From Sorangium cellulosum (lineage in GTDB: Bacteria; Myxococcota_A; Polyangia; Polyangiales; Polyangiaceae), in assembly GCA_020720045.1 (NCBI GenBank), contig DYPH01000004.1, positions 1 to 64,000 of the forward strand: a stretch of DNA of 64,000 nucleotides. Direction: 5' to 3'. The translations under genes and the position numbers were made by a program. The notes below the pieces were generated by a model. The model was given only the letters and a program-made list of their open reading frames with translations. It was not told where the DNA came from and did not search any database. Below, in pieces: positions 61-23,403 of this stretch. Every line of letters starts with the position of its first letter. Position 1 is the first letter of the stretch.

Positions 61-2001
61 CTAGAACTGGACGCGGGGGACGCCGTCGCCCGCCGGCGTG
101 TGGACCGCCGTCGCCGGCTTCGGTTCGCTCGATGCCTTCCCCTCCGGTTTTGACGAGCGGGTATCGGAACGGACCGGTTTTGCGGAAGAAACAGCGCTCG
201 TTGCTTCAGGCGTTGCTGCGGGGGCGACCGGAATGGCGGAAGGGGCTGCCGTCGGTGGGGCCAACGAAACGGCGGCCGCTGGTGCGCTCGCCGCCGGCGT
301 CGCCGCGAGGGCGCTCGCGAGAGGTGCCGGCGCGCGGTGGGTCCCGAGTATGGCTGCCGCAACGGCCAGTGCAGCAACGATGCCGGTCAGGCCGACCACG
401 ATGATCACCCAGCCGGTTCGCGACCCCTTGCGGGCGGCGGCGACGGTCGGCGCACCGACGCGGGCTTCGCCGGCGGGATTCCACGACTCGTCGTTGTTGG
501 GGGCCTTCGCCGCTGCGTCCGGCGGGCGCGCCCCCCAGGCGGCGGCTACGTTGGGTCGAGGCGAGCGCTGCGAGTCGACGGCGATTGGCCGTTCGATCTG
601 CGCGCGAGGCGCCCCGTCCATGGCGAGCGTCTGCCGCGGAATTTCGATTTCCCCATCAAAACGAGCCGTTCCGTGGAGTCCCTGGGCCGGGCGCTCCGTA
701 GTCGGCGGGAGGTCGGCGGTGGCGCGTCGAGGATCTTGGGGCCGCTGCGGCAACGCAATCGGGACCGGCAGGATCGGCGGTCCCAGCGCTTCTGAGTCTT
801 GCGAGGCGGTCGGAGCGTTCACGACCGACGGACTCCCTGGATTTGAGCGGCGTTCCGGTTCACGCGCCGTCGGAGGGACCATCGTGACATCGCCGCGCGC
901 GAGCGCGACGACCTGCTCGACCGCCATTTCCTCGGTGTACGCCTCGCCGCCGTTCGCCTGCGGACTATCGATGTATCGTGCACGCAAAAGACGCAGCTCG
1001 GAGGCAAACGCAAGTGCGGTGCTGGGGCGTTGCCGCGGATCCTTTGCGAGGGCCGATGCGACAAGTCGCGAAATCGGCTGCGGAATTTCCGGGCGAAGCT
1101 CATCGACGCGAGGCGGAACGCGGTGGGTCTGGAAGCGCACCCATTCGGGGACGCTCTGCGCATCGGCAAACGGATGGCGACCGACGAGCATCTCGAAAAG
1201 CATCAGCCCGAGCGCGTACAGGTCGCTCTGGGGGCTCACCTCGCCGCGGAGCTGCTCGGGGGCGGCGTACTGGAAGGTGCCGACGAAGGAGTGCTGCCCG
1301 GTGAACGCGCTCGGCTTCTTCATGCGAGCGACACCGAAATCAAGAAGAACGGCGCGCACTTCTACCGGCGAAATTCGCGCAAGGAAGACGTTCCCCGGCT
1401 TTACATCGCGATGGATCATGCGGTGCGTCGTGTGGGCGACATCAAGGGCGTCGAGGATCTCCGCCGCGATCGCAATCGCCGATCGGAGCGGTAGGCCGTC
1501 GGCCCGTCGCCGGAGGATCGCGAGGAGCGTGTCGCCGTCGAGCTTCTCCATTACGAAGAACGGCCGCGGCTGCTTCTCGGCGGTCAGGCCGCCATCGGTG
1601 ACACGAACGATGTTCGGATGGCGGATCGCGGCCAGCGCGCGCGCCTCGTCCCGCATCCGCCCGGAGAGGTCGTGGCGATCGACGTGCTGGGGATTCAGCA
1701 GCTTCATCACTGCCCGCGACCCGAGGAAGGTGTGCTCCACCTCCACGACGGTCCCTTGCCCGCCACGGCCCAAGACGGACACGTAACGGTAGGGAGTTCC
1801 GGGAATTTCTTCCCCTCTGGCGAAAGGTTCGCTGTCCATACGTCGGAGCTTCGGAGCGCGTGATGCTAGCGCGGATGGCTCCCGCTGCGGCGCAGGAAGC
1901 GCGTCACGGCGACTGGAACCGCTAAGGATGACGTCGGACTCGCTGAGAGGAATGGCAGAGTCGGCGTTGACGACGGGGGGGGCAGGGGACAGGCGCGGCA
2001 T
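61..2001 (-). CDS. Membrane-anchored Ser/Thr protein kinase
   Basis: Eukaryote-like (Hanks-type) kinase, 646 aa. Visible motifs are the glycine loop GRGGQG (78-83), the ATP lysine K100 (AVMK), the catalytic loop HRDVKPGN from H197, DFG 221-223 and an APEQL segment. A Pro/Ala-rich linker leads to one membrane segment near 531-553 and a disordered Ala/Pro/Ser tail, so the kinase domain is probably cytoplasmic and the tail external. Residue 55 (MDSEP, codon at 1837-1839) is an alternative start; the first 54 residues are low-complexity and neither start has a convincing ribosome site. It lies 46 bp downstream of the ATP-grasp gene on the same strand and may share its transcript. The substrate is unknown; proximity to the polysaccharide locus is only suggestive. 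Confidence 0.9.
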   Translation of the reverse strand: MPRLSPAPPVVNADSAIPLSESDVILSGSSRRDALPAPQREPSALASRAPKLRRMDSEPFARGEEIPGTPYRYVSVLGRGGQGTVVEVEHTFLGSRAVMKLLNPQHVDRHDLSGRMRDEARALAAIRHPNIVRVTDGGLTAEKQPRPFFVMEKLDGDTLLAILRRRADGLPLRSAIAIAAEILDALDVAHTTHRMIHRDVKPGNVFLARISPVEVRAVLLDFGVARMKKPSAFTGQHSFVGTFQYAAPEQLRGEVSPQSDLYALGLMLFEMLVGRHPFADAQSVPEWVRFQTHRVPPRVDELRPEIPQPISRLVASALAKDPRQRPSTALAFASELRLLRARYIDSPQANGGEAYTEEMAVEQVVALARGDVTMVPPTAREPERRSNPGSPSVVNAPTASQDSEALGPPILPVPIALPQRPQDPRRATADLPPTTERPAQGLHGTARFDGEIEIPRQTLAMDGAPRAQIERPIAVDSQRSPRPNVAAAWGARPPDAAAKAPNNDESWNPAGEARVGAPTVAAARKGSRTGWVIIVVGLTGIVAALAVAAAILGTHRAPAPLASALAATPAASAPAAAVSLAPPTAAPSAIPVAPAATPEATSAVSSAKPVRSDTRSSKPEGKASSEPKPATAVHTPAGDGVPRVQF

Positions 2002-3428: not shown

Positions 3429-5363
3429 ATGGAAACGCGGAACGGACGCGATGGAGAGGATGTTTCCGCCAAAGGGGCGGCAAATGTGGGGTCGACTCCC
3501 CTTTTGAGCACCAACGAGGCGCCCACGAAAGGGCCTCTGCGGCTTTTCCTAGGGGCTGCGCTCGCCTTTTACGCGCTGTTCTTGTGGCGCACGAGCTTCG
3601 TGGCCCAGGGGACGCGTTGGTTCGTACTCTTCGAAGACGCCATGATCTCGATGCGGTACGCGCGCAACTTCTCGCGGGGCGATGGCCTCACGTGGAACGT
3701 CGGCGAAGCGCCGGTTGAGGGCTACACCAATCTTCTGTGGACGTTATGGATGAGCGCGCTCCACAAGCTCGGCCTTCCCGAATCCAAGATTTCGCTCGGA
3801 ATCATGTTTACCGGCGTCGCGATTCTTGTGACGCTCGGGTTTGTCGTCGCCCGAATTGCGCGCAAACTTACCGACGCCCCGTGGGTCCCCGTCGCCGCCG
3901 CCGCCGCGACGTGGTTCTGCTACCCGCTCGTGTTCTGGACGCTGCGCGGCATGGAAGTCGGCGCCGTCTCGCTTTGCATTACGGGCCTGCTCGCGTTCGC
4001 CCTCGAAATCGAAGACGACCATTCTTGGGGGAAAGTCGCGGGGATGGCCGCGCTTGGCGGCGCTTCAGCGCTCCTCCGATCGGACTCGGTTACCTCCGTC
4101 GCGATGCTTGGACTCTACGCGGCGGCCGTCTCGCCGAAGGGGCGTCGCTTCGTCACGCTCGCCATGGTCGGCGGCTTTTCTGTGGCGATGCTCGGTGGTC
4201 AAATCGCCTATCGCCACAATTACTATCACGAAAAGGTGCCGAATACCGCCCACCTAAAACTTGGCGGAATCAGCACACCTACTCGCGTCAAACGCGGTTT
4301 GTTCGTGATGCTCCAGGTCTTTGGTTACCACCTCGGCGTGCCATTTGCGACGCTCCTTACGGGGCTCCTCTCGGGGCTCGTCTCGAAGGATTACAAGGAC
4401 AAGACCAATCGTCGTTTGCTGCTCCTTATCGCGATGCTTGGGCTCCAATTTGCCTACGCGATCTATGTCGGCGGCGATGCCTGGGAGTGGATGCTGTACG
4501 CGAACCGCTACACCAGTGCTGCGATGCCGGCGCTCATCCTCCTCGTTACCGTCTTTGTCAGCCGCTTCCTTGGCGCCTGGGAGGAAGAGGCGGCGCGGAA
4601 GGCGACCGTCCGACGGTTTGCCACATCGCTCGTCGGTATCGGGCTCCTGCTCCTGGCGCTCATGGTGCTTGCGAAGGTCCGCCCCGAAGAGGGCATCGCA
4701 CGTACGATCGTTTTCTCCAAGAAGGTCGCGGGTTTTGGCGGGCTCTTCTTCCTGGTCGGCCTCTTGATGTTCCTCATCACGCCGAACTTGGAGCTCCTCG
4801 TCGAGGATGGGAAAATCGGCCTCGGAAAGATGCGTGATCAGGTGCCGCTTGGCGTTGTCACCCTGATCCTTGTCGTCCTTTGGGCCCCCGGCCAGTTGGA
4901 GCCGCTTGCTACCTGGGCCAAGGGGAACGCCGCCCAGTTCCACGACGAAGAGCGCTATGCGCGCCTCGGCATCCTGTTGAATCGCAAGACGCCAAAAGAC
5001 TTCCGAATTGCCGTGATGGCCGCCGGTGCAACCCCCTATTTCGCCGATCGACCGACGGAAGACATGCTCGGAAAGAACGATGCCGTGATCGCCAAACAGT
5101 CGCCGAAAGGGGTCTTCTCCCCCGGCCACGACAAATGGGATTACGACCACTCACTTCGCGAGAAACAGTCGAAACTCATCGTCGAACTCGCCGATCGAAC
5201 CGACAAAGACATGGCAAGCATCCGGGCGTGGGGCTTCAGCAAGCTTGGGAAGCCCGAAGACGAGGACGCCATGTGGATCCATTCGAGCGCCCTCCAGTAC
5301 GCACCACTCTTCGACAGCGAATGGGACACCCGCGACGGGCTTGATGCCGTCCTCGGAAAGTGA
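3429..5363 (+). CDS. GT-C type membrane glycosyltransferase
   Basis: 644 aa with many hydrophobic segments. After the first membrane helix (about 39-58) comes an acidic motif FEDAMISMRYARN (E69 D70), then WNVGEAPVEGYTN and LLWT. This is the pattern of polyprenyl-phosphate-sugar-dependent GT-C transferases such as mycobacterial AftB-like proteins, which transfer a sugar from a lipid carrier at the periplasmic face. The C-terminal 160 or so residues after the last helix look soluble and periplasmic. The ATG at 3429 follows a GAGGGA ribosome site. The stop overlaps the GTG start of the acyltransferase (GTGA). Probably decorates or extends the exopolysaccharide repeat; sugar and acceptor are unknown. 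The partial gene at 63488 has a related motif. Confidence 0.75.
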   Translation: METRNGRDGEDVSAKGAANVGSTPLLSTNEAPTKGPLRLFLGAALAFYALFLWRTSFVAQGTRWFVLFEDAMISMRYARNFSRGDGLTWNVGEAPVEGYTNLLWTLWMSALHKLGLPESKISLGIMFTGVAILVTLGFVVARIARKLTDAPWVPVAAAAATWFCYPLVFWTLRGMEVGAVSLCITGLLAFALEIEDDHSWGKVAGMAALGGASALLRSDSVTSVAMLGLYAAAVSPKGRRFVTLAMVGGFSVAMLGGQIAYRHNYYHEKVPNTAHLKLGGISTPTRVKRGLFVMLQVFGYHLGVPFATLLTGLLSGLVSKDYKDKTNRRLLLLIAMLGLQFAYAIYVGGDAWEWMLYANRYTSAAMPALILLVTVFVSRFLGAWEEEAARKATVRRFATSLVGIGLLLLALMVLAKVRPEEGIARTIVFSKKVAGFGGLFFLVGLLMFLITPNLELLVEDGKIGLGKMRDQVPLGVVTLILVVLWAPGQLEPLATWAKGNAAQFHDEERYARLGILLNRKTPKDFRIAVMAAGATPYFADRPTEDMLGKNDAVIAKQSPKGVFSPGHDKWDYDHSLREKQSKLIVELADRTDKDMASIRAWGFSKLGKPEDEDAMWIHSSALQYAPLFDSEWDTRDGLDAVLGK

Positions 5364-6550
5364 CGATGGCAACCGACGCAAAGCACGGCGCGCACGCCCC
5401 GAAAACGACAAACATTGCGGCACTTGACGGCCTGCGAGGCCTCGCGGTCATCGCGGTTCTGATCGACCACTTCAGCTGGTCGTTCACGCCGAAGCTGCCA
5501 CTCTTGAAAGACTACCTCGCAGCCGGCTGGATCGGCGTCGACCTTTTCTTCTGCCTCTCCGGTTACCTGATCACGCGCGGCCTCGTGAAGGACACCGGCC
5601 GAACGCTCGGCGAGCGTTTGAAGCTCTTCTGGATGCGCCGGGCCCTTCGGATCTTCCCGCTTTATTATATCGTCGTGATCGTCGGGACGCTTGTCTGTCT
5701 CGCGGTCGGCGCTCGCCAGCACATTCCTGGCCTCTCCTACTGGCTCTACTTTCAGAACTATCATCTAGCCTTCGACCCAGATGTGCTCCGTTGGACGGCC
5801 CACTTCTGGTCGCTTGCGATTGAAGAGCAGTTCTATTTCGTTTGGCCGCTCGTGGTATTGCTTTCGCCAAAGAAGGCGCGCCCGTGGGTTGCCGGTGCTC
5901 TCTTTGCGTTCTGTGTAGGGAGCCGCACGTTCTTCGCATTGAAGCCCCAGCTGCTCCTTGCGCACATTCCCGCGGTAGAAGGGTTCGGGCCGTGGGATAC
6001 GGCAGCGCGCTTCCTCTACCGGTCGACGCCGACCCACATGGACGGCCTGCTCCTTGGAGCGCTCCTGTCGATGCTCGAGACGATGAAGGGGAGCGCGGCG
6101 CTCACGCTCTGGAAGCGGTGGCGCGGCGTAATTTTTGCGGTTTCTACTGCGGCCCTCATCGGCCTCATGGCGGTCACCAAAGGCTTCCTCGCCGAGGATC
6201 GACGCGTCGTCATCGTCGGTTACCCGCTCCTCGCCGTCGTCTTCGCCTCGTCGGTGAGCCTCGCCGTCGACCGGGAATTCATTCCTGCGATTCAGCGAAT
6301 CTTCACAAGCCGACCGCTCGTTGCCTGCGGCAAGGTCTCCTACGGGATGTACATTTTTCATTGGCCGGCCGTGGCGCTTCTTGCCCCGAAGCTCGACGCC
6401 TTCATGGCCGCTCAAGACAAGGTGACCGGCGCTGCTGTTGGCGCAGCCGTCATCGTCGTCGGGACGGTTCTTTCCTACGTCGTTGCAGAGCTCTCCTTCA
6501 AATATGTAGAGAGTTGGTTCTTGACGCTAAAGGAGCGCTTCCACGATTGA
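5360..6550 (+). CDS. Acyltransferase family 3 (OafA/YrhL-like)
   Basis: 396 aa integral membrane acyltransferase. Diagnostic are ALDGLRGLAV followed by the family His (IDHF) in the first helix, and RRALRIFPLYY in the next loop, followed by about nine more hydrophobic segments. The family moves acetyl or other acyl groups from the cytoplasm onto sugars of surface polysaccharides. The GTG start overlaps the upstream stop by 4 nt; an ATG at 5366 is an alternative. Translational coupling to the GT-C gene suggests both modify the same repeat unit. Confidence 0.9.
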   Translation: MTMATDAKHGAHAPKTTNIAALDGLRGLAVIAVLIDHFSWSFTPKLPLLKDYLAAGWIGVDLFFCLSGYLITRGLVKDTGRTLGERLKLFWMRRALRIFPLYYIVVIVGTLVCLAVGARQHIPGLSYWLYFQNYHLAFDPDVLRWTAHFWSLAIEEQFYFVWPLVVLLSPKKARPWVAGALFAFCVGSRTFFALKPQLLLAHIPAVEGFGPWDTAARFLYRSTPTHMDGLLLGALLSMLETMKGSAALTLWKRWRGVIFAVSTAALIGLMAVTKGFLAEDRRVVIVGYPLLAVVFASSVSLAVDREFIPAIQRIFTSRPLVACGKVSYGMYIFHWPAVALLAPKLDAFMAAQDKVTGAAVGAAVIVVGTVLSYVVAELSFKYVESWFLTLKERFHD

Positions 6551-6586: not shown

Positions 6587-8536
6587 ATGACAAAAACCGA
6601 CCTCGAAGCGAGCAAATCCGTGGCGGACGAGCCCGAGCACGCGGATACCTTGCCGGCGCTTGCGCGTAGGAAAGGGCAAAACCTGATTTGCCAAATCCTG
6701 TTGCGCCATGGTGATGTTACCTCGGCGAACGTTCGCAAGGCGCTGAAAGCCCAGGAGGAGAAGGGGGGCCAAATCGGCCGAATCCTTGTGGCGATGGGGG
6801 CGTGCTCCGAGCGCGCCATTTCGCGAGCCCTCCTCGAACAGGTCCGTCTGCGCGACGACATGGATCAGGCGAATCTGTCCCAGCTCGCTCGGGACAATCC
6901 CGCCATCGCTGGGCTTGAGGTCTCGTGCAGCCCGGTCCGCACGACGCTCACGCTCCTCCTCTCGGATGTGTTCTCGCTCCTTGCTTCGTTCATTATCGCG
7001 TTTTCTTTTTCGAATTTGCGTGCGGCCTACACCAACTCGCTGATCCTCCTCATCGGCGCGACGACGCTTTCGATGCTCGCCTTCGTCGGCGCAGGCCTCT
7101 ACGCCGCGATGGCGCACAGTCCGCCCGACGAATTGCGGATCACGAGCGGGGCCGTCACTTCGGCGCTCATCGGCATCGCGACCGTAGGTCTCTTGGCCGA
7201 CAAGGTTGAGCGGCTTTGGACGATTGCCGCGCTCCTGATTTGGTGGCTCTCCGCACTTTTCATTGTCCCAATCATTCGTGCCATTGTTCGCGGAAAGGCG
7301 AGCCGTACGCGCTGGTGGGGGCATCCGGTTGTCGTGCTTGGCGCTGCCAAAACGGGGCGCTTGGTCGTCCGTACCTTACGCGCCCAGCCTGAGCGCGGCC
7401 TCGTGCCGGTGCTCCTCCTCGACGACGACCAGAGCAAGCACGGAACGCTCCGCGCAAGCCTCCACGACGAGCAGCTCGAAGTTCGCTCCGTCGCAATGGA
7501 AGCCTCCGATCTCGTTCGAGGTTCGACGATCGCGATGGCCTCTGATTTTTTCGGAACCGACGACGACGACCTCCCGCCCCCGTCCCTCTACTCATCGCGA
7601 CCGTCAAGCGACCGAGACAGCGACGCCCCTTGGCCGAGCGTCTTTATGAAGGCGCCCGGCATGTTTGCGGAGGTCGATGGCGTGCCGATCGTCGGCGATC
7701 TGTCCGTCGCAGCGACGCTCGCGAAACGATTGAAAATTGACTACGTAATCCTTGCGATGCCCGGACTCGCAAGCGACAAACTCCTCCGAATTACGGAAAG
7801 AGTTGGCGGCGCGTTTAGTCACCTCCTTGTCATTCCGGATTTGTTCGGTCTTGGAAGTATCGGCGTTCCTGCGAAAGACGTCGGCGGTATTCTCGGTATC
7901 GAGGTTCGCCAACAGCTCCTTCTGCCGGGGCCTCGTTTCGCGAAGCGTGCCATGGACGTCGCACTCACGTCGCTCGGCGGGATCTGCATCCTACCGATCC
8001 TGATCCTGCTTACGCTCGCCATTGTCATCGACTCCCGAGGAGGCGCCTTTTATAAGCAAAAGCGCCTTGGTCGCGACGGGAAGCAGTTCTTCGCCCACAA
8101 GTTCCGCTCGATGCACGGCGACGGGGAAGCTCGTTTGAAGGCGATCCTCGAAGCCGATCCGAAGCTCCGCGAAGAGTATGAGGTTTACCACAAACTTCGG
8201 AATGACCCACGCGTCACCCGCGTCGGGAGGATCATCCGCAAGTACTCGCTAGACGAGCTTCCACAGCTCTGGAACGTCATCGTCGGCGACATGTCTCTCG
8301 TCGGTCCTCGCCCCTATTTGGAGCGTGAGATCAAGGATATGGAAGGGCAAGAGGGCTTCATCCTTCGTGCCTGGCCTGGTATGACGGGTCTCTGGCAGGT
8401 CTCCGATCGAAACGCCATTGGCTTCTCGGGCCGCGTCCGCATGGACGTCCACTACGTCCGTAACTGGTCCCCGTGGATCGACATCTACATTCTCGCGCGC
8501 ACCTTCGGGGTCGTCATCAAAGGCACCGGGATGTAA
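6587..8536 (+). CDS. Polyprenyl glycosylphosphotransferase with MshEN-like N-terminus
   Basis: 649 aa initiating enzyme for polysaccharide synthesis. The C-terminal bacterial sugar transferase domain has KRAMD, a membrane segment, [13 protein letters not shown] and GPRP, typical of WbaP/WcaJ/EpsZ enzymes that place a sugar phosphate on undecaprenyl phosphate. The middle has about four membrane helices and a CoA-binding-like Rossmann region ([19 protein letters not shown]) interrupted by an acidic Ser/Asp-rich insert. Unusual are residues 31-90: two tandem copies of an [12 protein letters not shown] / [12 protein letters not shown] pattern, each followed by a short helix (KALKAQ / RALLEQ), like the duplicated motif of MshEN (GspE N-terminal) domains. 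Some MshEN domains bind cyclic di-GMP. A strong terminator follows. The fusion is seen; ligand binding is inferred. Confidence 0.9.
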
Positions 8537-8593: not shown

Positions 8594-10192
8594 TCAATCG
8601 CTTTTTCGAGCGGTCACCGTCGGCTCCGGTGACTGTACGATTGAGCGGGGCGCGACGCTCGTTGCCAGCGTCACATTCGCCATAATCTTGGAACCTTCGC
8701 CGACGCGGATGGGGCCGAAAAGGGTCGCATTTGCGCCGACGTGAACGTTCTTCTCCAGGAACGGCGCGCCGCTCTCCTTCGCGCCATTCGCCGCCGCAGG
8801 GCCGAGACCGAGGCCGAGGGTCACGTGCTGAAAAAGAATGCACCCAGTCGACACGTAGGCCTTCGGCGATAGCGCGAGCCCGAAGCCATGAACGAGGACG
8901 ACCCCCGGCTCCAACGTCGCTTCCCAGTGGATGTCGCTTCCATAGAGGTGGCGGACAAGACGCGATACAAACTTGGCGCCGAGACTATTTCCGCCAAGAT
9001 GGAGTGCGCGCATCACGCGATAGGCGACCATGATCTGAAAGCCGATGTTGTTTACGGCATCGACGAAAATCTTCCGTTCACTGCTCGCGCCGTGGCTTCC
9101 GCCGCCGTACTTACTCTGGCTCGCAACCAAAGCGGCATGATCGGCACGAATGGCCTCGAGTAGGGTGGCCCGTCCTTCGCCACCATCGATCTTTTTGAGT
9201 CCCTTTCGGAACGCTCGGTATTCCCGAAGGACGTCCCCGAGCGACCCGGTCTCTTCGCGCACTCCGCGGAAATATTGAATGCCGTAAACGAGGGTAGTCC
9301 CGGCAACTGCGATGCGCTTGAGCCCAATCTTATCAAGAGCTTCTGCTGCCTTCACTCCCGTTTTCGCCAGCGGCGCCGCCAGGCCTGGCGCGAGGACCGT
9401 GAGTGCGAGGACAGGTCGTGAAAGCGGATTGACGCCGGTCAGATGCTTCCAGGGATTCGCGTGAGGGACGTCGGGGTGTTTACGAGCGACCTTCGTCCAA
9501 TACACGCCATCCATCACGCTTCGCGCGAGCCACTTGTCGAGCGACGCATGATCCGAAGCGTGAATCGAGTAGCCCTCATTGGTACAAAGAAATTCCGCGC
9601 CGGCCTTTTCGAGGCGGACGCCGAGTTCTGCGTCTTCAATGCGCCGGAAGTCGGCATCGAAGCCGCCGACCTGAAGGAAGAGCTCCTTCGGCATCGACAC
9701 GTTCCCTGTGTAGAGCCAATCGCCACGGAGCTTGGTCTTCCCGCTCGTCCATTCGTCGGCAAACCGTTCGAGCATGTGCGCGAAGAACCTCTCAAAAAGG
9801 GGCATTTCCGCGATGTTCGCGTCGGCCCTCAGCCGCCCCATCACCACGCGATCGGCGCGGTCGCCGTGCACGGCGAGGTGGGCCGCGAGGTACTCGGGGT
9901 GGAGGACCATGTCGTCGTCGAGGAAACAGAGGATGCGCCCGCGCGCTTCTCGGGCACCGCGCTGCCGTGCCGCCGCAACTCCCCCGTTTGCTTGACGAAT
10001 CACGCGCACGTTTACGCGGTCCTCGAAGGGTTTGGCGAAAGGGGCCGCCGGGTCCTTCGAACCGTCATCGACAACAACGACCTCGAAGCGTTGCCGCTCG
10101 ACGCTTTGCGCGGCGAGCTCGTTCAACATACGCGCGAGGCTTTCACCACGATTGAACGTCGCAATGATGACCGAAGCTTCGAAGTCACTCAT
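8594..10192 (-). CDS. GT2 glycosyltransferase fused to serine-acetyltransferase-like domain
   Basis: 532 aa from ATG 10192 (a longer frame to 10279 would run into the upstream gene). Residues about 3-230 are a GT-A family 2 domain: VIIATFNRGES, VVVDDGS (D42-D43), LDDDM (D92-D94), GGFDADFRRIEDAELG. Residues about 376-532 resemble a serine O-acetyltransferase: a helical YRVMRALH stretch, then GSDIHWEATLEPGVVLVHG and hexapeptide left-handed helix turns (VHVGANATLFGPIRVGEGSK). This predicts one protein that transfers a sugar and O-acetylates a sugar or acceptor. Its start overlaps the stop of the free acetyltransferase upstream by 8 nt, so the two are co-expressed. Whether both domains act on the same unit is unknown. 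Confidence 0.85.
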   Translation of the reverse strand: MSDFEASVIIATFNRGESLARMLNELAAQSVERQRFEVVVVDDGSKDPAAPFAKPFEDRVNVRVIRQANGGVAAARQRGAREARGRILCFLDDDMVLHPEYLAAHLAVHGDRADRVVMGRLRADANIAEMPLFERFFAHMLERFADEWTSGKTKLRGDWLYTGNVSMPKELFLQVGGFDADFRRIEDAELGVRLEKAGAEFLCTNEGYSIHASDHASLDKWLARSVMDGVYWTKVARKHPDVPHANPWKHLTGVNPLSRPVLALTVLAPGLAAPLAKTGVKAAEALDKIGLKRIAVAGTTLVYGIQYFRGVREETGSLGDVLREYRAFRKGLKKIDGGEGRATLLEAIRADHAALVASQSKYGGGSHGASSERKIFVDAVNNIGFQIMVAYRVMRALHLGGNSLGAKFVSRLVRHLYGSDIHWEATLEPGVVLVHGFGLALSPKAYVSTGCILFQHVTLGLGLGPAAANGAKESGAPFLEKNVHVGANATLFGPIRVGEGSKIMANVTLATSVAPRSIVQSPEPTVTARKSD

Positions 10193-10808
10193 GGTTGCCC
10201 ACCTTCCCACCGCTGACGCTTCCTCGCTCGTTCTGTGCCGCGTAAGGCGAGCCGGCGTCCTTGATCGATTTGACGACACGTCCAGGAATTCCGGTGACGA
10301 CGGAGTCGGGTGGAATGTCGCGCGTCACGACGGAGTTTGCACCAATGATGGATCGTGCGCCGATTCGAATAGGTCCAAGAATTCGGGCGCCTGCGCCGAT
10401 CGTAACGTCATCTTCAATGACGGGATATCCGTTATCTTTCGCGGTTCCGACGGTGTTGTTTCCCATGAATCGGACGCGCTTCCCGATTTTTGCGTCGCCG
10501 CCGATGACGATACCGATCGGATGCACGAAGAATACGCCGTCCCCAATCTCAACTTCATTCCCAATTTCACAGCCGTAAACGACAGTCATCGTTCGTCGGA
10601 GTGCATGGTTCATTCCGGGAATCCGGAATTTTCGTGCGGAGTCGCGAAGGCGCATCAAAGTGAGAAGTTGGTACGAGTCGTTCGTGACCACCTGGGTCGC
10701 GATCGTCTTCGCGGGAACGTTCTCCTTCTGAAGTAGCGCCTGGGAGAGCCCTACGGCGTCGTCGTACATGCGGCGGAAGAGGCCTCGGCGGGGGCGCGGG
10801 TCGGACAT
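10185..10808 (-). CDS. Hexapeptide (CysE-like) acetyltransferase
   Basis: About 207 aa from ATG 10808. A TTG at 10853, preceded by AAGGA at good spacing, would give 222 aa and could be the true start. The C-terminal half is a left-handed beta-helix of hexapeptide repeats (CEIGNEVEIGDGVFFVHP, IVIGGDAKIGKRV, VTIGAGARILG, RIGARSIIGANSVV) ending in the TGIPGRVVK signature of serine acetyltransferase-like enzymes. Within a polysaccharide locus it more likely acetylates a sugar than serine. It is first in a two-gene minus-strand operon with the GT2-acetyltransferase fusion. Confidence 0.85.
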   Translation of the reverse strand: MSDPRPRRGLFRRMYDDAVGLSQALLQKENVPAKTIATQVVTNDSYQLLTLMRLRDSARKFRIPGMNHALRRTMTVVYGCEIGNEVEIGDGVFFVHPIGIVIGGDAKIGKRVRFMGNNTVGTAKDNGYPVIEDDVTIGAGARILGPIRIGARSIIGANSVVTRDIPPDSVVTGIPGRVVKSIKDAGSPYAAQNERGSVSGGKVGNHE

Positions 10809-10867
10809 GGGTGCCACGATCGCCAGTTTCGAGGGTGCTGACAACAGCTTCAATCACCTGGTCCTTC

Positions 10868-14114: not shown

Positions 14115-15263
14115 TCACCACGGCTTTGCGAGGTATTCCTGCAACTGTTTTCCCCAGGCTTCCCCTTCCGTCGTCGGCACGTAGGGCTTCCCGACCGAGC
14201 AGCCCTGCTTCGTGTTGTCGACGAGGAGATTCGGCGGGCAGCGATAGTGAAACGTCCAAGCAATATGGGGTACTTCGAGGCGCTGCGCCTCTTTCCACAA
14301 CGCTTGCACGTCGCCCATCGACATCGTGCTGATCGTCCGTTGCTGAATCGGGCCGTACTCGGAAATGATCATCGGAATGTAGGCGGCCGCCTCGACGAAC
14401 TCTTTGCCGAAGCGCTCCGGCGGATCATACACGTGTACTTCGTAGGCGATGTTGACGCCGTTCCCGGCAGTGATCGGGTGCGTCAGGTAATAGTCGGGCC
14501 GGCGCGCCCAATTCCGGGTCCCCTGGACCGCGACGAGGTGGGGTGGGAGCGCCGGATCCTCGACCTCACGAATCGCAGCGACGGAATCGTTCATCGCCTT
14601 CCAGACGGCGCCGTCGAGGGCCCCGTCGTTGTTCGACTCCGGTTCGTTGACGACGCCGAAAATTACGTGCGGGTATTTTGCAAGCGCTCTCGCGAGCTTG
14701 TGCCAGGTCTTCGCGGTGTCGGCCGTCGGCGCGCCCCCCATCGCCATGCCGCTCTTCACGAAGCTCGGGTCGTGCCAGAGGGAGACCTCAAGATACACGC
14801 CAGGCTTCTTCCCGATGTGCTCGACGACGGCGACGATGTCCTTCAAGTAGGCGTCGTCATTGAGGACAGAGTCCCAGTTCAACCGGCCGTCGGCCGACGG
14901 ATAGCTCTCGAGGAGCAGGCGCAGGAAGTTCGAATGCCAGCGGTCGACGAGTTCGTCGGCCTGGCGCATCACTTCCTCGGGATGCGCCTTCTCGAAGGTG
15001 CATGCGTCGCAGGAGCGCGTGTCGTGGAGGTTTACGCCGCGTCCGTGGAAGGGCTTCCCGTCCGACGTGAGAATCTTATTTTTCTCGACGCGCAGCCACC
15101 CATCCGCCTTCGGACCGACCTTATCGTTGGCGACCGGGGGGGCGTCCACCTTCGTGATCCCCGCGATTTCAGCCAATTTTTGGCAACCACCTGCCAGACT
15201 CGCAAAAGCGATCCCAGCAGCAACAAGGGTAGGGCGGGCGGCGAAAAACGGACGGGCGCGCAT
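14115..15263 (-). CDS. GH5-like glycoside hydrolase (cellulase family) lipoprotein
   Basis: 382 aa from ATG 15263. The start is chosen because it gives a signal peptide (MRARPFFAARPTLVAAG) ending at Cys27 (LAGGC), consistent with lipidation. The TIM-barrel glycosidase shows GRGVNLHDT, the acid/base motif VVNEPES (Glu207) and the nucleophile strand IISEYGP (Glu302), the usual pair of family 5 retaining endoglycanases. It probably cleaves or trims beta-linked polysaccharide at the cell surface. Endoglycanases are often encoded in exopolysaccharide or cellulose loci to release or edit chains. Divergent from the pseudo-BY-kinase gene, and followed by a 58-aa membrane protein gene. Confidence 0.85.
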   Translation of the reverse strand: MRARPFFAARPTLVAAGIAFASLAGGCQKLAEIAGITKVDAPPVANDKVGPKADGWLRVEKNKILTSDGKPFHGRGVNLHDTRSCDACTFEKAHPEEVMRQADELVDRWHSNFLRLLLESYPSADGRLNWDSVLNDDAYLKDIVAVVEHIGKKPGVYLEVSLWHDPSFVKSGMAMGGAPTADTAKTWHKLARALAKYPHVIFGVVNEPESNNDGALDGAVWKAMNDSVAAIREVEDPALPPHLVAVQGTRNWARRPDYYLTHPITAGNGVNIAYEVHVYDPPERFGKEFVEAAAYIPMIISEYGPIQQRTISTMSMGDVQALWKEAQRLEVPHIAWTFHYRCPPNLLVDNTKQGCSVGKPYVPTTEGEAWGKQLQEYLAKPW

Positions 15264-15645
15264 GGCGCCGCGAATCCTCGCACGACGGCGGGGAAAACGG
15301 GGCGCGAAACCGCCGCCTGCCGCGACCTTCCTCGCGATCCTGCCGTCGCCGAAAGGCAAATTTCCGGGGAGGTTCCCAATCGTGAACAGTTCGTTCAAAA
15401 GGTTCTTCGTTCCCCGGAACGATTTCACGTATTGTGCCGTCGACGCTCCCGGCGTCAGCTTCGCAGTCGGCAGTTGCCGGAGGCGTGGTTTTAGAGTTCG
15501 AGCCTCAAACGTTTCGGCGTTCGTTCGTCTTGGTGCCCTGGAAATTTCCTAGCCCAACCGTGCGGAGCCTTTCGTGATCGGCTCTTCTTGCGCGACTCCC
15601 ACGAGAAGCGCGTGAACGTCGCGCACGATTCGGAGACAGCTGTCT
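15264..15645. other. Divergent intergenic region with palindromes
   Basis: 382 bp between the GH5 gene (minus) and the OPX/PCP operon (plus). No coding sequence or RNA gene is evident. It holds a 10-bp palindrome GGAAATTTCC (15540-15549) and a perfect 12-bp palindrome AGACAGCTGTCT (15634-15645) that abuts the GTG start at 15646 and overlaps its GGAGA ribosome site (15632-15636). The promoters were not identifiable with confidence. Confidence 0.5.
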
Positions 15646-22233: not shown

Positions 22234-23403
22234 ATGAGCCTCGTCCCCGGCCTAACCCTCTCCGGGTACCGCATCGCGCGAAAGCTCGGTGCTGGTGCCT
22301 TCGGCGCCGTTTGGCTCGCCGAGCGGCTTGAGGGGGGCGAGAAAGTCGCGATTAAGACTCTTCTCAAGCAGAACGTCCCCGCGAGCGCCCATTTTGATCA
22401 TATTTCGCGTTTCAAGCGCGAAGCGATGAACCTGCGCCGCATCGACAGCGAATACGTTGCGCGATGCATCGATTTTATCGTCGACGATGAGCATGGGATG
22501 CTGATCGTCATGGAATACATCGAGGGGGAACTCCTCTCCGATATCTTGCAAGATACACCCTTGTCGCTTCCGGAGGCGGTCGAACTCGGCGTTCATCTCG
22601 CCCGAGGCCTTTGCGACATGCACAAAGTCGGCGTGATCCATCGTGATCTCAAACCGTCCAACATCATGATCCGCCAGCTGGAGAACGGTCTCCAGCGCGC
22701 GGTGATTTTTGACCTCGGTCTCTCGCGATTGACCGCTCAGCCGACGTTTGGCGGCGATGGACCGGCGAACGGCGACATCACCGCGACCGCCTCCCGCGTC
22801 GCGATCGGAACGCCCGCGTTCATGGCGCCGGAGCAAATGCTCGACGCGCGCCGCGCAACGCCACCGTCGGACGTCTACGGCGTCGGCGTTGTCTTGTATT
22901 ATGCATCTTCTGGGATGCTCCCCTTCGAGGGGGACGAGCGCGAAATTGCGCGGCGGAAGCTCTCTGAAGAGGCACCTCCCCTCGATATCGGTCGTCACGA
23001 TGAACTCGCGCTTCGCTTTGCGGACGTCGTCGGTCGGGCTGTTCGTCGCCGCCCCGATGATCGCTATCGTACCGCCGACGACTTCCTCGCAGGCCTTGTA
23101 GAACTACGTCAACTCGCAGCAGAAATGGACAAGCGACGCACCGCGTCGGCGGCGAGTTTGGCGCAAGGAGCCCCCGCGCATCGCCTCACGCCGCAGCCGT
23201 TTGTTCCTTACGGTGGCGCTCCGCCGCCGCCGCCGATGCGGGCGCGCCAGGCCACGATGCCCGACACACGCGCGCGCGCTCAATCGGTGAAATCAAACGG
23301 TGGAAACACCGGCGCGATCATCCTCGTCCTCACGATTCTCGTTGTGCTCGCCGCCGGTGGTGGCCTCTGGGCGGCTGGGGTCTTCACCAGCCACGGGCCG
23401 TGA
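22234..23403 (+). CDS. Ser/Thr protein kinase with C-terminal membrane anchor
   Basis: 389 aa. The kinase domain runs from the N-terminus: glycine loop GAGAFG (19-24), K41 in VAIK, HRDLKPSN from H136, DLG (160-162) in place of DFG, and FMAPEQML. A Pro-rich stretch precedes a single C-terminal membrane helix (GAIILVLTILVVLAAGGGLWAAGVF), leaving almost nothing outside, so this is not a sensor with a large external domain. The stop overlaps the GTG start of the esterase. A 6-bp inverted repeat GCACGG-N3-CCGTGC lies about 25 bp before the start. Substrates are unknown; it directly follows the polysaccharide locus. Confidence 0.92.
   Translation: MSLVPGLTLSGYRIARKLGAGAFGAVWLAERLEGGEKVAIKTLLKQNVPASAHFDHISRFKREAMNLRRIDSEYVARCIDFIVDDEHGMLIVMEYIEGELLSDILQDTPLSLPEAVELGVHLARGLCDMHKVGVIHRDLKPSNIMIRQLENGLQRAVIFDLGLSRLTAQPTFGGDGPANGDITATASRVAIGTPAFMAPEQMLDARRATPPSDVYGVGVVLYYASSGMLPFEGDEREIARRKLSEEAPPLDIGRHDELALRFADVVGRAVRRRPDDRYRTADDFLAGLVELRQLAAEMDKRRTASAASLAQGAPAHRLTPQPFVPYGGAPPPPPMRARQATMPDTRARAQSVKSNGGNTGAIILVLTILVVLAAGGGLWAAGVFTSHGP

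Follow-up and report, generated by a model that had tools for sequence, protein, structure and literature searches.

The closest described relatives of the module reported here are the N-domains of MshE and PilF-GSPIIB (MshEN, GSPII; PDB 5HTL, 8PDK), which are carried by ATPases. Their MshEN_N subdomain has a published layout of 24-residue repeats, RLGxx(L/V/I)(L/V/I)xxG(L/V/I)(L/V/I)xxxxLxxxLxxQ, with a five-residue spacer (PMC5013675). The consensus at position 1 is R/K/L (PMC11731258), and the terminal Gln is required for binding in PilF (PMC12002112, PMC11731258). The Gly at position 3 of repeat I makes a backbone contact to guanine (PMC12002112, PMC5013675); Ile or Leu at this Gly in MshE abolished binding (PMC5013675), and Ala at the equivalent site of repeat II in PilF-GSPIIA raised the KD about tenfold, to 19 uM (PMC12002112). 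Replacing Leu by Ile in the hydrophobic triads of PilF-GSPIIA constructs cost about 2.4-fold (PMC12002112), and in another published mutant Ser at position 1 of repeat II removed the residual binding of an already weakened PilF construct. Isolated MshEN_N (MshE 1-62) binds at 0.35 uM without MshEN_C (PMC5013675), so that absence of the latter subdomain is no obstacle to binding.

Among polysaccharide enzymes, a fusion of MshEN to a glycosyltransferase is already known in E. coli NfrB, for which activation by cyclic di-GMP has been proposed (PMC8669469); NfrB itself belongs to the processive GT2 synthases and carries a full MshEN at its C-terminus. Large monotopic phosphoglycosyl transferases (monoPGTs) such as WbaP and EpsZ are built from four membrane helices, a DUF region and a catalytic domain and have no N-terminal MshEN_N; EpsZ is under the control of EpsW, a response regulator that is a separate protein (PMC12802240). 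How Wzx/Wzy pathways are controlled after translation has been called incompletely understood (PMC12802240). In the literature searched, no report was found of MshEN on an initiating phosphoglycosyl transferase (PGT) or of a cyclic-di-GMP-regulated PGT.

The window analyzed here is a stretch of 64,000 nucleotides from Sorangium cellulosum (contig DYPH01000004.1, positions 1 to 64,000). It encodes a WbaP-type enzyme that carries an MshEN_N module at its N-terminus, with the following features:
5360-6550: acyltransferase
6587-8536, forward strand: initiating phosphoglycosyl transferase, large monotopic, WbaP-type, with the N-terminal MshEN_N module (649 aa; TIGR03022, PF02397)
6683-6754, forward strand: MshEN repeat I, residues 33-56; position 3 is Cys35 (codon 6689-6691), Gly in ATPase relatives; Gln56 invariant
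6755-6769, forward strand: five-residue spacer EEKGG, residues 57-61
6770-6841, forward strand: MshEN repeat II, residues 62-85; Gly64, Gly71 and Gln85 invariant; position 1 is Gln62
6842-6937, forward strand: short linker, residues 86-117, with no room for an MshEN_C alpha/beta subdomain
6941-7294, forward strand: four transmembrane helices, about residues 119-236, from hydropathy and predicted helices
7316-7921, forward strand: cytosolic DUF/CoA_binding_3 region of large monoPGTs, from PF13727 and conservation
7943-8521, forward strand: monotopic catalytic domain (Bac_transf), PF02397

The enzyme displays all the hallmarks of a WbaP-type large monoPGT, namely a TIGR03022 score of 442.1 bits (cut-off 403), four membrane helices, the DUF and the catalytic domain (PF02397, E 3e-58), and a profile search of the 6.3 Mb assembly returned it as the sole PF02397 match. 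The full-length structure model places the helices at residues 116-143, 149-168, 179-203 and 210-238, while its pLDDT of 51 makes its domain contacts unusable. Given the four membrane helices and the cytosolic catalytic domain, the N-terminal module is predicted to lie in the cytosol. The protein falls outside the EpsZ equivalog NF041877 (172.5 against a cut-off of 800) and the NfrB equivalog NF008411 (15.6 against 1170); the latter matches the module alone, and membership also needs a GT2 catalytic domain. Unlike NfrB, it is an initiating monoPGT with an N-terminal MshEN_N only. A marginal match was also noted between the module and the N-terminal 55 or so residues of the EpsG tyrosine kinase of exosortase-linked exopolysaccharide clusters (TIGR03029, E 4e-4 at best), although EpsG is a kinase acting on chain length and not an initiating enzyme.

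An earlier note on this DNA had described two tandem MshEN-like motifs at the N-terminus of the enzyme, a domain that classical WbaP, WcaJ and EpsZ do not have. Both points hold, with the repeats at residues 33-56 and 62-85 and the module outside the layout of the classical enzymes. Against the NCBIfam model NF053729 ('cyclic di-GMP-binding domain, MshE-related'), whose cut-off is 38 bits, the full protein reaches 42.0 and the fragment 46.3, and 26/26 members match at E 0.01 or better; other, degenerate domains in this genome stay under that threshold. Applied to a six-frame translation of the whole window, an HMM made solely from 19 ATPase domains, themselves retrieved with PGT-module or window-protein queries, found the module at E 2.4e-18 as its only match, with 66 bits; the highest score among 2000 shuffled controls was 8 bits. 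In phmmer searches against PDB, Thermus PilF was found at E 2e-9 and MshE at E 1e-3. The overlay on MshE proposed in the earlier note also came out as anticipated. The AlphaFold model of the module is a four-helix bundle (core pLDDT about 95) whose best PDB matches are cyclic-di-GMP-bound MshE and PilF-GSPIIB, at an rmsd of 0.8-0.9 A over 52-54 columns; Foldseek gave a probability of 1.00 and an rmsd of 0.9 A to 5htl. Structure comparison gave Z 9.3-9.7, which for a helical bundle is modest if taken alone, and the fold also matches PilB-PilZ complexes and the non-binding XpsE.

The proposed check against the Pfam 'MshEN' profile was less simple, since PF05157 has no match in the 6587-8536 protein but NF053729 does. 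In the PilB of the same genome PF05157 begins only at residue 75, past the repeats, and this test is uninformative here because the model begins after the binding motifs. The protein does not contain a full MshEN domain: besides the missing PF05157 match, the C-terminal alpha/beta subdomain is lacking and only about 30 residues separate the module from the first membrane helix. Weak matches to DUF4388 and HTH_WhiA stayed below cut-off and were rejected as the identity of the module. With four independent methods in agreement (phmmer, NF053729, structure and the ATPase HMM), it is confirmed that the module is a true MshEN_N homologue. We label it a homologue and at most a putative cyclic-di-GMP receptor, because the window protein departs from two consensus features of the binding motif.

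These departures concern positions 1 and 3 of the repeats. Gly is found at position 3 of repeat II (Gly64) but not of repeat I, where the window protein has Cys35; among the 26 orthologues this residue is Cys in 16 (the window included), Gly in nine and Ala in one, while it is Gly in 19/19 ATPases. Position 1 of repeat I, a Leu, fits the extended consensus, whereas repeat II begins with Gln or His in 26/26 (Gln62 in the window protein) and with Arg or Leu in the ATPases. Other contact residues are retained: Gln at position 24 of both repeats (Q56 and Q85) and Gly64 are invariant (26/26), both repeats preserve their Leu/Ile/Val triads, and contact positions are conserved above random repeat positions (permutation p 0.005). 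The loss of second-repeat binding residues that the earlier note held would refute its reading did not come about, most contact residues being retained in both repeats; Gly64 and Gln85 are preserved throughout, the position 1 Arg is not. Compared with MshE and PilF-GSPIIB, the module shares the 24-5-24 repeats, the bundle, both Gln, the repeat II Gly and the triads, but has no MshEN_C, has Cys for the repeat I Gly, begins repeat II with Gln where they have Arg/Leu, and sits on a membrane transferase instead of an ATPase. Judging by the published mutants, the Cys35 and Gln62 changes suggest weakened binding.

The Cys at position 3 of repeat I is accompanied by Ile at position 2 of repeat II in 16/16 rows, as against 1/10 without the Cys, and in MshE these two positions contribute to a single guanine site (PMC5013675). 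The pairing suggests that the Cys35/Ile63 half-site was remodelled as a unit, although kinship may explain part of it; our tree of the orthologues is effectively unrooted, since one outgroup (L126) proved to be an ORF in the wrong frame and the other sits on a very long branch. A second Cys, at residue 73 (position 12 of repeat II), occurs in 24/26 PGT modules and 7/19 ATPases. A Cys35-Cys73 redox pair was rejected as a general feature because either residue can occur alone: of the two, L040 and L044 have only Cys35 and the nine Gly-bearing sequences only Cys73.

Regarding its distribution, the module was found on this enzyme in 27 of the 108 family genomes searched, and a query with the module-less enzyme recovered orthologues (E below 1e-110) in exactly those 27 genomes, with no unfused orthologue among the 108. 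The extension is thus present in 27/27 orthologues (26 distinct sequences, on which the residue counts are based), and the absence from orthologues that the earlier note held would speak against it was not seen. The 24-5-24 layout of repeats and spacer is exact in all 26. In a class search of 318 genomes the fused set scored E 1e-37 or better and the next match 1.7e-13; of the four next matches, the three that were read were all ATPases. No comparable fusion was found elsewhere, the phylum sample and the class search giving only ATPases among the loci read, and a contig search elsewhere returned the same group (Labilithrix and Polyangiaceae MAGs). Mean identity to the window protein is 61% within the module but 15% before it and 37% after it; the catalytic domain averages 69% and the membrane bundle 32%. 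From this identity of 61% between low-identity flanks, the module is judged to be under strong constraint, with near-catalytic conservation. At the level of sequence, homology, fixation, conservation and retention of contact residues are demonstrated, as is, for the genomes sampled, the confinement of the fusion to one group of Polyangiaceae-related bacteria in which selection has evidently retained it. In L039, L041, L042 and other orthologues, Pro/Ala/Ser-rich open frames reach 190-340 residues upstream of the module (frame extents, not assigned starts), unlike the tail of 30 residues in the window protein.

The enzyme lies in a polysaccharide cluster, as indicated by the surrounding genes for the acyltransferase, glycosyltransferases, a WecG/TagA-type transferase, an O-antigen ligase/polymerase-type protein and a flippase-type protein. 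The cluster also holds a GH5 cellulase-family protein (14115-15428, reverse strand), and its genes are bracketed by Ser/Thr protein kinases at 61-2001 (reverse) and 22234-23403 (forward); kinase homologues occur near several orthologous PGTs too. An apparent two-enzyme fusion at 8594-10279 (reverse) joins a GT2 glycosyltransferase to a serine-acetyltransferase-like C-terminal half, which shares 27% identity with the separate 10185-10853 protein. In about a dozen orthologues (L039, L041, L042, L047, L051, L052, L055, L087, L089, L095, L097) the next gene downstream is serine-acetyltransferase-like, with 49-57% identity to that window protein, and this conserved neighbor may act on the same polysaccharide. 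When the neighborhoods of the orthologues were compared, no conserved partner gene was recognized beside the enzyme.

The genome has seven GGDEF matches, five of which are readable in full, all with an intact signature and the canonical Asp. We take this Asp to be guanine-selecting and typical of cyclic-di-GMP synthases, hybrid GGDEF enzymes having Ser instead; no hybrid-type Ser was found among the five full-length domains. Other candidate receptors in the genome are nine PilZ matches and five PF05157 proteins. The further claim of the earlier note, that gating would occur without a PilZ protein, does not follow, given the nine PilZ matches.

The best explanation in our view, to which we give about an even chance, is a regulatory MshEN_N module that senses cyclic di-GMP and tunes the enzyme, the window copy probably having a lower affinity than MshE and the Gly-bearing orthologues. 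As the sequence shows, an MshEN N-subdomain like that of PilB/GspE-type ATPases has here become part of a WbaP-type initiating transferase, at its predicted cytosolic N-terminus. Cyclic di-GMP would bind across both repeats and shift how the module sits against the membrane bundle or dimer, which would tune sugar-phosphate transfer to undecaprenyl phosphate, in either direction. Such a shift is plausible because large monoPGTs act as dimers and EpsZ is activated by bound EpsW. In the window protein and its Cys-bearing relatives one half-site is remodelled, and by analogy with the published mutants affinity is probably lower, with low-affinity sensing possible in the window protein. Ligand identity, affinity and the effect on transferase activity are what we infer, and the interpretation of the earlier note is partly supported, with cyclic di-GMP binding and gating as its putative part.

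Counting against a sensor is the existence of GspE/PilB N-domains that do not bind, such as XpsE and PilF-GSPIIA, and the main rival is docking, as in the PilB N-domain with PilZ. The bundle may have lost nucleotide binding in this branch and recruit a PilZ protein, a response regulator or a co-polymerase. The XpsE/GspE N-domain and the X. citri PilB N-domain bound to PilZ, both of which the fold matches, provide precedents, binding of a partner activates EpsZ in M. xanthus (PMC12802240), and the PilZ matches of the genome as well as the deviating Cys35 and Gln62 fit this reading. However, the contact positions of XpsE no longer carry Gly, Leu and Gln (PMC5013675), and both terminal Gln are gone from PilF-GSPIIA (PMC12002112), whereas the PGT modules retain both Gln, the repeat II Gly and both triads; nor was a conserved partner gene recognized. 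We regard docking as rather unlikely.

We give little credence to the idea that the module is a structural relic aiding only folding, dimerization or membrane placement. Its core conservation is as expected for a small bundle, MshEN_N can homodimerize (PMC5013675) and large monoPGTs act as dimers (PMC12802240), but two invariant Gln are not readily explained in this way, their side chains contacting phosphate and ribose in ligand-bound relatives and being lost in non-binding ones. Equally improbable is a retuned Gua1 half-site, in which Cys35 and Ile63 would form a site that binds either cyclic di-GMP with low affinity or a different dinucleotide, e.g., 3',3'-cGAMP. The Cys is common and conserved within its groups, and its pairing with Ile63 in a single guanine site agrees with this reading; however, the sequences are related and the association may reflect few events, and the guanine-selecting backbone amide is unchanged by Cys. 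The cGAMP-specific version is weakened, because no hybrid-type GGDEF is present among the five full domains.

Returning to the sensor reading, we tentatively propose a lineage of initiating PGTs switched directly by a cyclic dinucleotide on a built-in MshEN_N, with the sub-branch of the window remodelled for a different affinity or ligand, a proposal we consider somewhat short of even. The natural Gly-, Ala- and Cys-bearing orthologues offer direct test material and would reveal which changes MshEN binding tolerates. Direct control by cyclic di-GMP is well known for synthase-type polysaccharide enzymes. If our reading is true, the commitment of undecaprenyl phosphate, the first step of a Wzx/Wzy-type pathway, would come under the control of a sensor built into the initiating transferase itself, and in this genome the module occurs on the only PF02397 enzyme found.
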